Of a stretch of 64,000 bases of DNA, positions 5,574 to 27,470 are shown piece by piece (position 1 is the stretch's first letter; each line of letters starts with the position of its first letter). The notes under the pieces were generated by a model. It had not been told where the DNA came from and ran no database searches. It saw nothing but the letters and a program-made list of their open reading frames with translations. The position numbers and the translations under genes were made by a program. This DNA comes from Candidatus Melainabacteria bacterium (GTDB lineage Bacteria; Cyanobacteriota; Vampirovibrionia; Obscuribacterales; Obscuribacteraceae), in the NCBI GenBank assembly GCA_003963305.1, contig RXJR01000031.1, forward strand, positions 1 through 64,000. The letters run 5' to 3'.

Positions 5574-6596
5574 TTGGATCAACTAGTCAAGGTATTTGCA
5601 ACCGGACCACTTCCTAAACAAGTGCGCGAAAAACTGGCGCGCTTTTCTGATCTCAAGTCGTGGGAAGAGCCAACAGAAATAACTCAGGAACATCTGATTG
5701 AGCAGATCAAAGACCGCAGCGCAGTTGTTTGTTTGCTTGGCGATAAGATGTCGGCTGAAGTGATGGATGCCGCTCCTGAGCTGAAGTTGATCGCAAATGT
5801 CGCGGTCGGCTTCGACAACATTGACCTGGCGCACGCGAAAAAGCGAGGCATTCTCGTCGTAAACACGCCTGGTGTGCTCGATAATGCTACTGCCGACCTG
5901 GCTTTTGGATTGTTGCTGGCGTGCGCCAGGCGAATTGTAGAAGCGGACCAATACGTGCGAAACCACGAATGGACCGGCTGGAGAACAAACCTTCTTCTGG
6001 GCTCGGATCTGCACGGTAAGACACTGGGAATCGTCGGCATGGGACGCATCGGTGAAGCAGTAGGACGCCGCGCGCTCGGCTTCGGAATGAAAATTATCTA
6101 TACACGCAAAGGCAATGAAGAGAAAGACCACCGTCTCACGCGCGAGCTTGCAGCTAGACGTGTTTCTTTGCCTGAGTTGATCAGCAATTCTGATTTCATC
6201 AGTATTCACAGCCCACTCAATCACGAAACAAGGCACTTGATCGGAAAAGTCGAGCTCTCTCGTGTCAAGAAAAACTGCATTTTAATCAACACCGCGCGCG
6301 GTGCTGTAGTGGATCAGAAAGCACTGATCGCAGCATTGCAAGATGGAAAACTTGCCGCAGCCGGTCTGGATGTGTTCGAAGACGAGCCAAATGTCCCTGA
6401 CGAATTAATTGCCCTGAAAAATGTGGTGATAGTTCCGCACATCGGCAGTGCTACGAGCGAAACTCGAGCAGCCATGGCGCAATTGGCAGTGGAAGGACTG
6501 CTTTCGGCTTTCAGTGAAAGATTGCCTGAAAATACAGTCAACAAAGAAGTTTGGCCATTATTTGTAGAACGACTAAAAGTAGGATCTTCCAGATGA
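5574..6596 (+). CDS. D-isomer-specific 2-hydroxyacid dehydrogenase (glyoxylate/hydroxypyruvate reductase type)
   Basis: 340-residue NAD(P)-dependent reductase of the D-2-hydroxyacid dehydrogenase family. The nucleotide motif GMGRIGEAVGRR lies near residues 155-166. The catalytic triad is visible as Arg in NTARGAVVD, Glu in DVFEDEP and His in PHIGSA. The sequence around NVAVGFDNIDL fits glyoxylate/hydroxypyruvate reductases (GyaR/GhrB) better than phosphoglycerate dehydrogenase, and there is no ACT domain. The start is TTG. The stop overlaps the next gene's start as ATGA, so translation of the two is probably coupled. Substrate is inferred from family resemblance only. Confidence 0.85.
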   Translation: MDQLVKVFATGPLPKQVREKLARFSDLKSWEEPTEITQEHLIEQIKDRSAVVCLLGDKMSAEVMDAAPELKLIANVAVGFDNIDLAHAKKRGILVVNTPGVLDNATADLAFGLLLACARRIVEADQYVRNHEWTGWRTNLLLGSDLHGKTLGIVGMGRIGEAVGRRALGFGMKIIYTRKGNEEKDHRLTRELAARRVSLPELISNSDFISIHSPLNHETRHLIGKVELSRVKKNCILINTARGAVVDQKALIAALQDGKLAAAGLDVFEDEPNVPDELIALKNVVIVPHIGSATSETRAAMAQLAVEGLLSAFSERLPENTVNKEVWPLFVERLKVGSSR

Positions 6597-7486: not shown

Positions 7487-8794
7487 ATGCAACTCAGCAT
7501 CGAGAACCAAAAGCGGCTCTGGTTTGCGTATTTCGTAGCCCTGATTTGCTGGTCATTCAGTTCCTACTATCTGATCAGCACCTGGGCATCTGAAGGCACG
7601 CTCTTTGCCAGATCTATAGACGGGCAGCCGCACGTGCTCGACTATTTGCTGTTTTACGAAGACGAATATCTGGCCTTACACGCTAAAAGCGACCACCTGA
7701 ACATATACGATCCCGATCTGCAAGCAGCCGGAATCGCCAAACTGATGTCGCCGGTGGTGCCGACGACAAAATTCTACTCGCACTATCCGCCACTGCTTTT
7801 TGTCCTTTCCATTCCATTCGGCTTCGTGCCGATGCTCTGGTCATACCTGGCTTGGAATCTCGTCGGAATCATTGCGCTTTTGTTGAGCACATTACCTTTC
7901 GCTTACCGGAGATTCGGCAAGACGTTTCCCTTCTTCTTTGTTGCAGCCGCAGTCTTGACGAGCTTTCCAGTATGGAATTGCTTTGAACTGGGTCAGAGCA
8001 GCTTCTTTCTTCTGGGCGGCATCGCCTTATTTTTCGCCCTGCTCAAGCGCGAAAAACACTTTCTGGCAGGATTATCAACGTTCTTCCTGCTCATCAAAGT
8101 TCAATATCTGCCCGTGCTGGTATTAATTGGATTGATTCGAGGGCGAGTCAAATTCGTCCTTGGGGGCATCCTCGCTGGTCTGCTTGCCGTTGGAGTGTGC
8201 GTCTTCACGCTCGGATGGGAAAACTGTATTGCCTGGCCGAACATCGTTTTGCACGGTGAAACGAGCGACATCAACCGCGGTCTGATCGCACCGGCTATGA
8301 TGCAAAATGTGCGCGGCATACTGAACTTGATGACGGGCGACGATTCAGCAGCTGTGCGCATGATTTCTGCGGCACTGTGCATTATCACGATTCTTTTGAT
8401 CGGATATCTGTGGACGTCTCCTTATAAACGACTTCAAGGCTATACGAAATATGCCTTTGAAGTCGTGTCGGCAATTTCCATGATGATCATGCTGCTCTTC
8501 AACGTACACACGCACGCCCACGATTACTGCGTCTTCGTTTGCGCGGCAGTGTTGTTGTACGTTGCCGTGCTGGATGCGCCCGTGACAAAAGGCAGCCAGT
8601 GGTTGCGATATTTACTGGTTAGCTACCCATTGGTGAGCTGGATACTTTTCGTGGCGGAACCGCTCATTCAAAATGTCCTTAAGCTGCAACCGCTGGCAGT
8701 GCATATAGCTGTGGTTCTGGCGCTGTCGGTTGTGGTTTGGTTTGGCCAGCGCGGTGATCGTGTCGAGCCTGGGGAAATAGAAACTGGTACTTGA
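7487..8794 (+). CDS. GT87 family (DUF2029) polyprenyl-phosphate-dependent glycosyltransferase-like membrane protein
   Basis: 435-residue integral membrane protein with about ten hydrophobic helices. The N-terminal extracytoplasmic loop with DYLLFYEDEY and the FYSHYPPLLFV segment, then FELGQSSFFLLGG and LIKVQYLPVLVLI, match the GT-C superfamily GT87 (mannosyltransferase-like) pattern. Such enzymes add a sugar from a lipid-phosphate donor to a periplasmic acceptor; donor and acceptor are unknown here. It ends the glpD operon. Its stop codon TGA runs directly into the first unit of a hairpin repeat array, so the 3' end of the mRNA is made of that array. Confidence 0.75.
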   Translation: MQLSIENQKRLWFAYFVALICWSFSSYYLISTWASEGTLFARSIDGQPHVLDYLLFYEDEYLALHAKSDHLNIYDPDLQAAGIAKLMSPVVPTTKFYSHYPPLLFVLSIPFGFVPMLWSYLAWNLVGIIALLLSTLPFAYRRFGKTFPFFFVAAAVLTSFPVWNCFELGQSSFFLLGGIALFFALLKREKHFLAGLSTFFLLIKVQYLPVLVLIGLIRGRVKFVLGGILAGLLAVGVCVFTLGWENCIAWPNIVLHGETSDINRGLIAPAMMQNVRGILNLMTGDDSAAVRMISAALCIITILLIGYLWTSPYKRLQGYTKYAFEVVSAISMMIMLLFNVHTHAHDYCVFVCAAVLLYVAVLDAPVTKGSQWLRYLLVSYPLVSWILFVAEPLIQNVLKLQPLAVHIAVVLALSVVVWFGQRGDRVEPGEIETGT

Positions 8795-8913
8795 TGCGTC
8801 CGGGACGGACGCGCTCCATGCATCCGGGACGGACGCGCTCCATGTGTTCGGGACGGACACGCTCCATGTGTTCGGGACGGACACGCTCCATGTGTTCGGG
8901 ACGGACGCGCTCG
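8794..8913 (+). repeat. Hairpin repeat array A: five 24-bp tandem units
   Basis: Five exact 24-bp periods (8794-8817, 8818-8841, 8842-8865, 8866-8889, 8890-8913). Each carries a hairpin with a GGA centre and a GCTCC tail. Unit 1 has GCGTCCG-GGA-CGGACGC. Units 3 and 4 have GTGTTCG-GGA-CGGACAC, where both arms changed together, with one G-U wobble. The array begins on the last base of the GT87 stop codon and ends 3 bases before the stop codon of the convergent beta-glucosidase gene. There is no T-tract, so it is not a textbook intrinsic terminator. It is the clearest member of a four-site family (see also 13.6, 23.1 and 27.4 kb). Confidence 0.9.
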
Positions 8914-8916
8914 TGG

Positions 8917-10242
8917 TTAGCGGTGTACTTCGTTGTGTGTGATCACTTTGGAATACCAGTATGCGCTGTCTTTCAAGATGCGTTTCTGGGTTTCATAGTC
9001 CACGTGAATCAGCCCGAATCGTTTTGAATAGCCATGCGCCCACTCAAAATTATCTAGCAGACTCCAGACAAAATAACCACGCACGTTTACACCAAGTCGC
9101 ATTGCTTTCCGCAATTCGACCAGATGATCGTGCACGTACTTGATACGCCTGGTGTCATGAACGTGACCATCGACAACTTGATCGTCTAATGCGCAGCCGT
9201 TTTCAGTTACATAGATAGGGGGCAAACGATATTCGTTATGCATCCGCACAAGCATGCGGCCAAGCGCTTCAGGAGCCACTTCCCAGCCCATCTCGGTGTA
9301 ATCGGAGCCAGGCACCTTTTTCATTTCGCCTTGCGGACCGATAGTGGTGCGCGTGTAATAATTAACACCCAGATAATCCAATTTTTGGGCAATCAAAGCA
9401 AAGTCATTCGGCTTCACCTGCGGTGCATCGGCAGACAGATCTCGTAAGGCGCCAGGAGGATAACACCCCCTGAAGAGTGGGTCCAGGAACCAGGCGCTGG
9501 TTGCATTCCAGGCACGCTCTGCAGCCATTTTCTGATACTTATCGTCCGTGTAAGCCTCTACAGGGGATAAATTGAGGACAATTCCAACCTGCAAGTCTGG
9601 TTCAATCGAACGAATCGCTTGAACGGTCATTCCATGAGCCACCAACAGGTGGTGAGCGACCTGCGCAGTCAACTTTCTGTCTTTAAAACCAGGCGCCATT
9701 TCACCCGTCAGATTACCCAGCACTGCAACCACCCATGGTTCATTGAATGTGGTCCAGTATTTGACCCGATCGCCCAATCGCTTCACAGCAACTGCGGCAT
9801 AATCGGAAAAATATCCAATCAAATCACGATTGCCCCAACCGCCTTTGTCTTGCAGTGCCTGCGGCAGATCCCAGTGATAAAGCGTTATGAATGGCTCGAT
9901 TCCCAGCGCCAGCAATGAATCAACCATGCGGTCATAGTAATCCAATCCAGCCCAATTTACAGAGCCGTGCCCCTGGGGAAATATCCTGGGCCAGGACAGC
10001 GAGAATCGATATGCTTTTATGCCGATTTGTTTGAGAAGAGAAAAGTCTTCATGGAATCGATGGTAATGATCGCAAGCGATATCGCCGTTGTCGTCATTGA
10101 AGATTTTTCCAGGCGTGTGCGAAAAGGTATCCCAGATCGACGGTCCTTTACCGTCTAAATTCCAGGCGCCTTCGATTTGATATGCGGCTGTGGCCGCGCC
10201 CCACACAAACCCTCTGGGAAAACCATACTTTTCCGACGTCAT
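8917..10242 (-). CDS. GH1 family beta-glucosidase (or related beta-glycosidase)
   Basis: 441-residue TIM-barrel glycoside hydrolase of family 1, which removes beta-linked glucose or galactose from short oligosaccharides. The acid/base Glu is in TFNEPW (residue 168) and the nucleophile Glu in YVTENG (residue 347). The N-terminal GFVWGAATAAYQIEGAW signature is complete. There is no signal peptide, so it is cytoplasmic. AGGGGCGG precedes the ATG. It lies 85 bases downstream of rsgA on the same strand, and its 3' end abuts hairpin array A. Substrate preference cannot be read from the sequence. Confidence 0.93.
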   Translation of the reverse strand: MTSEKYGFPRGFVWGAATAAYQIEGAWNLDGKGPSIWDTFSHTPGKIFNDDNGDIACDHYHRFHEDFSLLKQIGIKAYRFSLSWPRIFPQGHGSVNWAGLDYYDRMVDSLLALGIEPFITLYHWDLPQALQDKGGWGNRDLIGYFSDYAAVAVKRLGDRVKYWTTFNEPWVVAVLGNLTGEMAPGFKDRKLTAQVAHHLLVAHGMTVQAIRSIEPDLQVGIVLNLSPVEAYTDDKYQKMAAERAWNATSAWFLDPLFRGCYPPGALRDLSADAPQVKPNDFALIAQKLDYLGVNYYTRTTIGPQGEMKKVPGSDYTEMGWEVAPEALGRMLVRMHNEYRLPPIYVTENGCALDDQVVDGHVHDTRRIKYVHDHLVELRKAMRLGVNVRGYFVWSLLDNFEWAHGYSKRFGLIHVDYETQKRILKDSAYWYSKVITHNEVHR

Positions 10243-13605: not shown

Positions 13606-13613
13606 TCCGCCAC

Positions 13614-13695
13614 GGAACGCACGCATCCCGCGTGCCAGGCATGGATCGCACGCGTCCCGCGTGCCCCGGCATGGATCGCACGCGTCCCGCGTGCC
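13614..13695 (-). repeat. Hairpin repeat array B: three units between convergent genes
   Basis: Units at 13614-13642, 13643-13672 and 13673-13695, each with a near-perfect stem. Read on the plus strand the second and third are GCACGCG-TCC-CGCGTGC, the reverse complement of a GGA-centred hairpin, flanked by GGATC/GATCC and GGCAT. The first unit has GCACGC-ATCCC-GCGTGC. The array fills the gap between the typA stop and the stop of the convergent propeller gene at 13700. Its leader ATCCGCCA (13605-13612) is also found at the start of array D (27304-27311). Confidence 0.85.
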
Positions 13696-13699
13696 ATTA

Positions 13700-14986
13700 T
13701 CAACGGGCTTTGCCGGTGCTTGCTTTGCCGCTGCTTGCTTTGCCGGTGCTCTTGCCGGGGTCCTTACTGCTGCCCTTATCCGTGCCTTTGCCAGAGGCTT
13801 TACTGCTGCCCGTATCCGCGGCTTTGCCAGCGGCTTTACTGCTGCCCTTATCCGTTCCCTTAGCTGACTGATAGCTGACACGATAAATAGCCCCGGCATC
13901 GTCATCTGACACAAGCAGAGCGCCGTCAGGCATGACCTGTACATCGACAGGTCGGCCAAGCACCTGCTCCCCAGGCTGCAAAAATCCTGTCAAAAACGGC
14001 GTCGCTGAAACAACTTTCTCTCCATCAAGCTTCACGCACATGACCTGATAGCCGACCTTCTTGCTGCTATTCCAGGAGCCATGCTGAGCGACAAAAATCT
14101 GATTTTTGTACTCCGCCGGAAACATCTTGCCTGTGTAGAAACGCATTCCGAGCGCAGCTACGTGGGCAGCGAAGGGATAGCGTGGCGGCACCGGTTTCAA
14201 ATTCGCAGGCGCCCGCGATCCAAACTCAGGGTCAGGCACATTGTTTCCGAAAAAGAACGGAAAACCAAAATGCATTCCAGCCTGTGGTGCACAATTCAGC
14301 TCATCTGGCGGAGTGGTGTCATTGAGCAGATCTCGACCATTATCAGTGAACCAGAGCTGACCCGTAACAGGGTGCCAATCAAAGCCGACTGTGTTGCGAA
14401 TGCCTCTAGCGAAGACTTCCTGTTCGGAGCCATCAGGTTTCATACGAGAGATGGCAGCGAATGGATCGTTGCGCATACAAACGTTGCAAGGCGCGCCAAC
14501 AGGCACATACAGCTTATCGTCAGGACTGAAGCGAATGAATTTCCATCCGTGATGTCTCTTGTCCGGAAAATTTGTTGACACCACCACCGGTGCTGGTGGA
14601 TCTTTCAAATGTTGTTCGATGTTATCAAATCGAATCACGCGATTAAGCTCGGCGACGTAGAGAGAACCGTTGCGAAATGCCACGCCATTAGGCAAGTCGA
14701 GATTGCGAGCAATGACAAAAACCTCATCGGCTTTCCCATCTTTGTCTTTATCGACAACTGCGTATACAGAACCTTTTCTTGTCGTGCCGACAAACAACGT
14801 GCCCGATGGTGACAGCGTCATCGACCGGGCGTTTTCTATATTGTCCTTATAAACTTCCACCTTAAAGCCAGGAGGTACTTTCAGCTTATCGAGCTGCGGA
14901 ACCTTGGTGGTCTGCGCCGAAGCCCCAGGCAAGACGCCCGTTGTCAACATAAGCAAACCGATGATGAGGCGCCTGACACTTACCAT
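13700..14986 (-). CDS. Exported PQQ/sorbosone-dehydrogenase-like beta-propeller with repetitive Lys/Ser/Gly tail
   Basis: 428 residues from the ATG at 14986, chosen because GGGAG stands 8 bases upstream and a signal peptide starts there (MVSVRRLIIGLLML, cleavage after ASA). The body resembles the six-bladed glucose/L-sorbosone dehydrogenase propeller: PPGFKVEVY, GTLFVGTTRKGSVYAV, RGIRNTVGFDWHP, DNGRD and VAQHGSWN. Family members oxidise sugars with PQQ, but cofactor binding is not proven here. The PCNVC pair may form a disulfide. The last 60 or so residues are a low-complexity tail of Lys, Ser, Gly and Ala built from short DNA repeats (about 13700-13860), possibly a polyanion- or envelope-binding tail. 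It is convergent with typA. Confidence 0.78.
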   Translation of the reverse strand: MVSVRRLIIGLLMLTTGVLPGASAQTTKVPQLDKLKVPPGFKVEVYKDNIENARSMTLSPSGTLFVGTTRKGSVYAVVDKDKDGKADEVFVIARNLDLPNGVAFRNGSLYVAELNRVIRFDNIEQHLKDPPAPVVVSTNFPDKRHHGWKFIRFSPDDKLYVPVGAPCNVCMRNDPFAAISRMKPDGSEQEVFARGIRNTVGFDWHPVTGQLWFTDNGRDLLNDTTPPDELNCAPQAGMHFGFPFFFGNNVPDPEFGSRAPANLKPVPPRYPFAAHVAALGMRFYTGKMFPAEYKNQIFVAQHGSWNSSKKVGYQVMCVKLDGEKVVSATPFLTGFLQPGEQVLGRPVDVQVMPDGALLVSDDDAGAIYRVSYQSAKGTDKGSSKAAGKAADTGSSKASGKGTDKGSSKDPGKSTGKASSGKASTGKAR

Positions 14987-23115: not shown

Positions 23116-23163
23116 ATGCACCCGGGACGGGTGCGCTCCATGGCACCGGGACCGGTGCGTTAC
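23116..23163 (+). repeat. Hairpin repeat array C: two units after glnN
   Basis: Two 24-bp units. The first (23116-23139) has GCACCCG-GGA-CGGGTGC and the GCTCC tail. The second (23140-23163) has GCACCG-GGAC-CGGTGC and a diverged tail. They lie between the glnN stop codon (23168) and the terminator hairpin. Stem sequences differ from arrays A, B and D, but centre and layout are the same. Confidence 0.85.
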
Positions 23164-27196: not shown

Positions 27197-27384
27197 GGCT
27201 TCCGGCAGGTAGGTTCATCCACGGTGATCCTAGCCCCAGGGGGCGCGCATGTCATTGGGGAAACTACGAGGGCAGGGCGACGTCGCGCTAGGGCGCCGCA
27301 CCGATCCGCCATGGAGCGCCCGCATCTTGCGGGCAATGGAGCGCCCGCATCTTGCGGGCAATGGAGCGCCCGCATCTTGCGGGC

Positions 27385-27420
27385 TTAAAAAAAAAAGCCC
27401 GCGGGACGCGGGCGCTCCAT
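27385..27420 (-). terminator. Intrinsic terminator formed by a repeat unit (distal)
   Basis: Read on the minus strand, the hairpin GCCCGCG-TCC-CGCGGGC is followed by ten T residues, a textbook Rho-independent terminator. It lies 50 bases downstream of the TPR gene's stop codon. The stem is a member of the hairpin repeat family. Confidence 0.8.
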
Positions 27421-27442
27421 AAGAATTCGTGCCTGGTGCGCG

Positions 27443-27470
27443 AAAAGCCCGCGGGACGCGGGCGCCCCAT
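27443..27470 (-). terminator. Probable intrinsic terminator formed by a repeat unit (proximal)
   Basis: The same GCCCGCG-TCC-CGCGGGC stem followed on the minus strand by TTTT. It lies immediately after the TPR gene, upstream of the stronger terminator, giving a tandem pair. Confidence 0.6.

Follow-up and report, generated by a model that had tools for sequence, protein, structure and literature searches.

REPs of the GTAG superfamily are high-copy palindromes of 20-40 bp with an unpaired tag at the 5′ foot and with alternative complementary stems; they are biased to the 3′ ends of convergent or unidirectional genes, and a RAYT (TnpAREP) gene lies between inverted copies (PMC2817692; Di Nocera 2013, PMC3733652), the REPtron structure of Nunvar et al. 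2010 (PMC2817692). CGTC REPs are likewise short, tagged, intergenic palindromes, but are without a known transposase (PMC3733652), and in BIMEs and REPINs clustered REPs alternate in orientation. An array of five hairpin units in a Candidatus Melainabacteria genome was compared with these systems, the window being the whole 64,000-nucleotide stretch of DNA that was analysed. The array is very probably a tandem REP cluster, mobilised by a RAYT and amplified in place at gene 3′ ends, so that an apparent one-off RNA curiosity becomes a transposase-linked repeat family with an exact searchable motif.

Structure of the five-unit array

The array (TRF score 189) fills the 122-bp gap separating two convergent stop codons, the gene context being taken from our own ORF calls rather than from an annotation. 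The first base of unit 1 is the last base of the plus-strand gene's TGA (8792-8794), and three bases lie between position 8913 and the TAA of the minus-strand gene (8917-8919, plus-strand positions). The original prediction had the number, length and coordinates of the units right, as well as their distances from both stop codons. Unit 5 ends in G and the other units in C. Read on the minus strand, a unit is TGGAGC GCGTCCG TCC CGGACGC, with a 7-bp stem and a 3-nt loop.

7487-8794, plus strand: glycosyltransferase family 87 gene (GT87, PF09594), convergent, upstream of the array
8794-8913, minus strand (REP sense strand): five REP units of 24 bp, head-to-tail, each a GGAGC tag and then a stem-loop; units at 8794-8817, 8818-8841, 8842-8865, 8866-8889 and 8890-8913
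8796-8812, minus strand: unit 1 hairpin GCGTCCG-TCC-CGGACGC, perfect 7-bp stem; tag GGAGC at 8813-8817
8820-8836, minus strand: unit 2 hairpin GCGTCCG-TCC-CGGATGC, one G.T pair
8844-8884, minus strand: units 3 and 4 hairpins GTGTCCG-TCC-CGAACAC, one pair double-changed, one C.A mismatch
8892-8908, minus strand: unit 5 hairpin with mixed arms (on the plus strand, left arm altered and right arm original)
8917-10242, minus strand: GH1 beta-glucosidase gene (TIGR03356), convergent, downstream of the array

On the plus strand the arms are GCGTCCG/CGGACGC in unit 1 (seven pairs), GCATCCG/CGGACGC in unit 2 (one A.C, which is G.T on the minus strand), GTGTTCG/CGGACAC in both unit 3 and unit 4, and GTGTTCG/CGGACGC in unit 5, a two-wobble state on this strand. 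Paired substitution on both arms had been predicted, and within the array this holds for only one of the seven stem pairs, C2-G16, replaced by T2-A16 in the third and fourth units; the C5-to-T change affects one arm alone and gives T.G on the plus strand and C.A on the minus strand. Unit 2 is intermediate, by one G.T step, between unit 1, whose stem is GTCC/GGAC, and an ATCC/GGAT stem present at three other loci of the genome. Since the GTCC stem is confined to this array within the genome, its founder would have diverged in place or been derived from an ATCC-type copy. Units 2 and 5, earlier described as caught mid-change, are indeed intermediate states, but ordinary G.T and T.G steps together with tandem duplication suffice to produce them.

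A 90-aa open frame with VPNTWS/VPDAWS repeats, which crosses the array on the minus strand (8612-8884), is a by-product of the 24-bp period and not a gene. Intrinsic terminators, taken as a GC hairpin with a U-tract, were sought and no site was found at the array; a CRISPR reading of the array was also rejected. An Rfam covariance-model search of the window returned a tRNA only, with no described RNA family at the array.

A dispersed hairpin family and the RAYT that it flanks

The array is one locus of a genome-wide family whose unit frame, on the minus strand, is TGGARC followed by GCNNNNR-TCY-YN′N′N′N′GC. The pattern GGARCGCNNNNRTCYYNNNNGC gave 156 matches in the 7.48-Mb genome, and its reversed control gave 0. 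Between loci the four central stem pairs differ, with cores such as ACGC, ACCC, AGCC, ACTC, CCGC, AGTC, ATGC and ATCC each paired with its own complement; the search placed no constraint on the N positions, and still 417 of 448 were Watson-Crick (93%), against 25% in reversed-control hits. For the 43 distinct hairpins the covariation score was 0.422, compared with 0.132 ± 0.019 when shuffled (0/500) and 0.04-0.11 in slid controls, and there were 45 double-change cells compared with 12.7. Since these pairs vary and yet remain complementary, arm substitutions are coupled family-wide; the coupling first proposed for the array is thus true of the free stem positions generally, and paired substitution belongs to the whole REP family rather than to the five units alone.

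Clusters were analysed at loci amounting to 1.52 Mb of the genome, in part contiguous sequence and in part stretches picked around hits; 52 of the 63 clusters lie outside ORF calls, and 27 consist of a single unit. Other members of the family in the window are as follows.

13613-13694, plus strand: second REP array, three units, ACGC stem, period 29-30, between convergent genes
23118-23140, minus strand: REP hairpin, ACCC stem, with a second, degenerate hairpin beside it (cluster to 23162)
27312-27469, three units plus and two minus: five REP hairpins, CCGC stem, mixed-orientation cluster

Direct repeats of 15 and 36 bp adjoin the second array at 13707-13855, possibly within the 3′ end of a coding region.

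Intergenic clusters with both neighbours called (n = 50) comprised 24 between convergent genes, against 15% predicted from base-pair share (p 2e-8), 24 between co-directional genes and only two between divergent genes, against 31% predicted (p 3e-6). Picking loci near hits is not expected to skew these orientation classes, but ORF calls at arrays are imperfect, as a period of 24 bp keeps frames open. The flank of the RAYT gene itself is one of the two divergent clusters. A preference of REPs for gene 3′ ends has been reported (PMC3733652), and this placement fits it. Multi-unit clusters are of one orientation in 29 of 35 cases, and the same stem core is shared by 78% of unit pairs within an array and by 13% between arrays (0/2000 permutations). 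Many arrays keep a constant, locus-specific period (24, 25, 26, 31, 32, 35, 44, 46 or 63 bp), as is expected if a REP and some local flank were duplicated in tandem.

A single match to Y1_Tnp was found in the genome, a 206-aa protein (P0001, L049:1396-2016, minus strand) with the motifs NHVH, WQ and YIENNP, which scored 92.2 bits against the NCBIfam REP-associated tyrosine transposase model NF047646 (cut-off 80) and is similar to E. coli TnpAREP (4er8, E 1e-10). Four exact motif copies and one partial copy lie on one side of its gene and inverted copies on the other; hairpins inverted around the only Y1/HUH transposase found in the genome are the REPtron layout. The same inverted layout surrounds the RAYT in two genomes of the same family (G028 and G022; L120, L125), and in a third genome (G024) the layout is alike and the hairpin related. 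At 23 RAYT loci from other phyla (Acidobacteriota, Thermodesulfobacteriota, Chloroflexota, Verrucomicrobiota, Omnitrophota and others), a strict test found a motif match on both sides within 300 bp at seven, and a match on at least one side was present at 14; hits in RAYT flanks numbered 35 in 13.9 kb near the genes and one in 583 kb of shuffled sequence. On a Kiritimatiellota contig, motif copies (207 plus, 508 minus, 664 plus) fall within the RAYT match itself (L214:109-681), reminiscent of the REP insertions reported to occur inside tnpAREP genes. In the broad sense the family is one of RAYT-associated REPs, being a high-copy, dispersed, mostly extragenic short palindrome that keeps its stem pairing through base changes, with a transposase gene between two inverted copies whose product is a RAYT.

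Origin of the array

A search of the congener genome G001 gave neither a Y1_Tnp match nor a strict-pattern REP copy. At the orthologous locus (GH1 91% identical, GT87 74%) its convergent genes are separated as TGA-11 bp-CTA, with no hairpin in the 11-bp gap, and the REP is likewise absent from G001 at three further window loci with alignable flanks. Lineage-specific insertion would be the simplest reading of these empty sites, loss by deletion in G001 being a possible alternative. G002, a member of the same genus, carries 42 copies, many of which differ in stem, and no intact RAYT was recognised in its assembly (86% complete) despite this number. In the gap downstream of a TypA/BipA-like gene (L209, G002:C74, about 5780-6120) it carries CCGGC-stem hairpins of its own, at a place where the window genome has ACGC REPs. 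G001, which has neither a RAYT nor strict-pattern copies, can be set against genomes carrying 42-233 copies as a natural comparison of how REPs spread.

The coupled arms had been attributed either to gene conversion between units or to selection on an RNA hairpin, neither of which is the best account: the hairpin frame has upwards of 150 copies, some of them on either side of the sole RAYT gene of the genome, and is missing from four aligned sites in a congener that lacks both the RAYT and strict-pattern copies. RNA hairpins in a chain, under selection as terminators or 3′-end stabilisers of the two mRNAs, would suit an array that abuts both stop codons and belongs to a family strongly enriched at 3′ ends, and REP hairpins of E. 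coli do stabilise the 3′ ends of RNA, though they do not terminate transcription (PMC13289151). Such selection is nevertheless unlikely here, since the array has no U-tract or terminator-like site, its fold energy equals that of dinucleotide shuffles in both directions (z -0.53 and -0.40), its units pair with their neighbours in the minimum-energy folds, the strand bias of G.T over A.C, which would have pointed to the functional strand, is not significant (17 vs 10, p 0.12), and a congener has the same gene pair with no array. The predicted position at two mRNA 3′ ends stands, and the hairpin chain itself is disfavoured; by analogy with E. coli REPs, the array might still have a stabilising effect on 3′ ends (PMC13289151). 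Selection on RNA explains the coupling of the arms no better than does a constraint imposed by the transposase, whose substrate would be folded single-stranded DNA.

Gene conversion, spreading coupled arm changes from unit to unit, could account for the homogeneity of arms within arrays and for the identity of units 3 and 4, but it is improbable: simple tandem duplication, with which the many arrays of constant period agree, explains that homogeneity, and conversion leaves the complementary changes between loci with different stems unexplained. The identical units 3 and 4 and the intermediate units 2 and 5 need only duplication and stepwise G.T substitution. The tandem, variable-copy organisation also recalls an ordinary minisatellite with an incidental palindrome, a reading that is hardly credible given single copies of the same frame dispersed as 27 of 63 clusters, RAYT-flanking copies in several genomes and a reversed control of zero.

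Mobilisation of a REP by the RAYT, followed by local amplification, is therefore the preferred reading. The family, its covariation, the REPtron, the empty sites and the location bias were observed, and a mechanism can be proposed around them. REPs would be short non-autonomous palindromes moved by an HUH/Y1 RAYT acting on folded single-stranded DNA. One such element may have inserted into a very short stop-to-stop gap and then been amplified head-to-tail in place. Its stem bases would drift and yet stay complementary, through G.T intermediates, because the transposase recognises the single-stranded fold. Copies would survive chiefly where they are least harmful, immediately beyond stop codons and at a distance from promoters, possibly with a side effect on mRNA 3′-end stability.

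Guide tag and comparison with known systems

Points that count against the preferred reading are the many copies in G002 with no RAYT recognised, the confinement of the GTCC stem to this array, and the tag, which is GGAG/GGAA and not that of a described superfamily. The GTAG superfamily tag (GTAG/GTGG, GYRG and others) was absent, every alignment row having GGARC as the pattern search required, and base 2 was also G in the RAYT-flanking copies, which were found independently of the tag; the CGTC superfamily tag (CGTC/TGTC/CCTC) was absent as well. Among the collected RAYTs (L049, L119, L120, L122, L123, L125 and L210-L232 included), GGA-tagged flanks go with Arg in a W-x5-[YFW]-D-R motif, and GTAG/GTGG-tagged flanks, among them those of G005 and G018 from the same family and of many RAYTs of cyanobacteria, go with His (Y-D-H, F/Y-E-H, W-E-H), a comparison of related rows in which many flanks are one-sided and tags were read through shared inverted words, partly by eye. 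Three RAYTs fall in neither class (L226, Gln; L248, Tyr; L231, Thr), and L136 (Arg), with dissimilar hairpins on its two sides, was left out of the tag classes. Tags cluster on the RAYT tree, with nine changes against a shuffled mean of 13.9 (0/200). In E. coli TnpAREP the Arg/His position is that of H101, which is listed among the GTAG-contacting residues; as a caution, R is said to replace H101 at times in subclasses associated with typical REPs (PMC6006769), and Pseudomonas and Xanthomonas members are reported to carry R there. From these alignments we tentatively suggest that a widespread RAYT/REP lineage may have switched its guide tag from GTAG/GTGG to GGAG/GGAA, with Arg in place of His at the H101 position. 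If so, guide recognition would follow a readable residue-base code; should the correlation hold, the specificity of single-strand transposases could be readable, and testable, from sequence.

The family shares with GTAG REPs the tagged palindromes in high copy, the alternative stems, the 3′-end bias and the RAYT between inverted copies, and differs from them in its GGAG/GGAA tag, conserved TCC/TCT loop and GC foot, and in its mostly head-to-tail arrays, which are reported to be absent or rare in most described GTAG families. It resembles CGTC REPs as a set of short tagged intergenic palindromes but has a transposase and no CGTC/TGTC tag, and it is clustered like BIMEs and REPINs, with one orientation prevailing instead of alternation. 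The motifs of the window-genome RAYT fit those of TnpAREP subclass 2.4 (NH[IFV]H, WQ, YIxNNP), whose REPs are described as long or double-foot with GT[AG]G, unlike the short, perfect 7-bp stems with GGAR found here (PMC6006769). The element is thus of a known kind, and what is new is the GGAG/GGAA tag, the head-to-tail arrays and the correlation between tag and RAYT residue.
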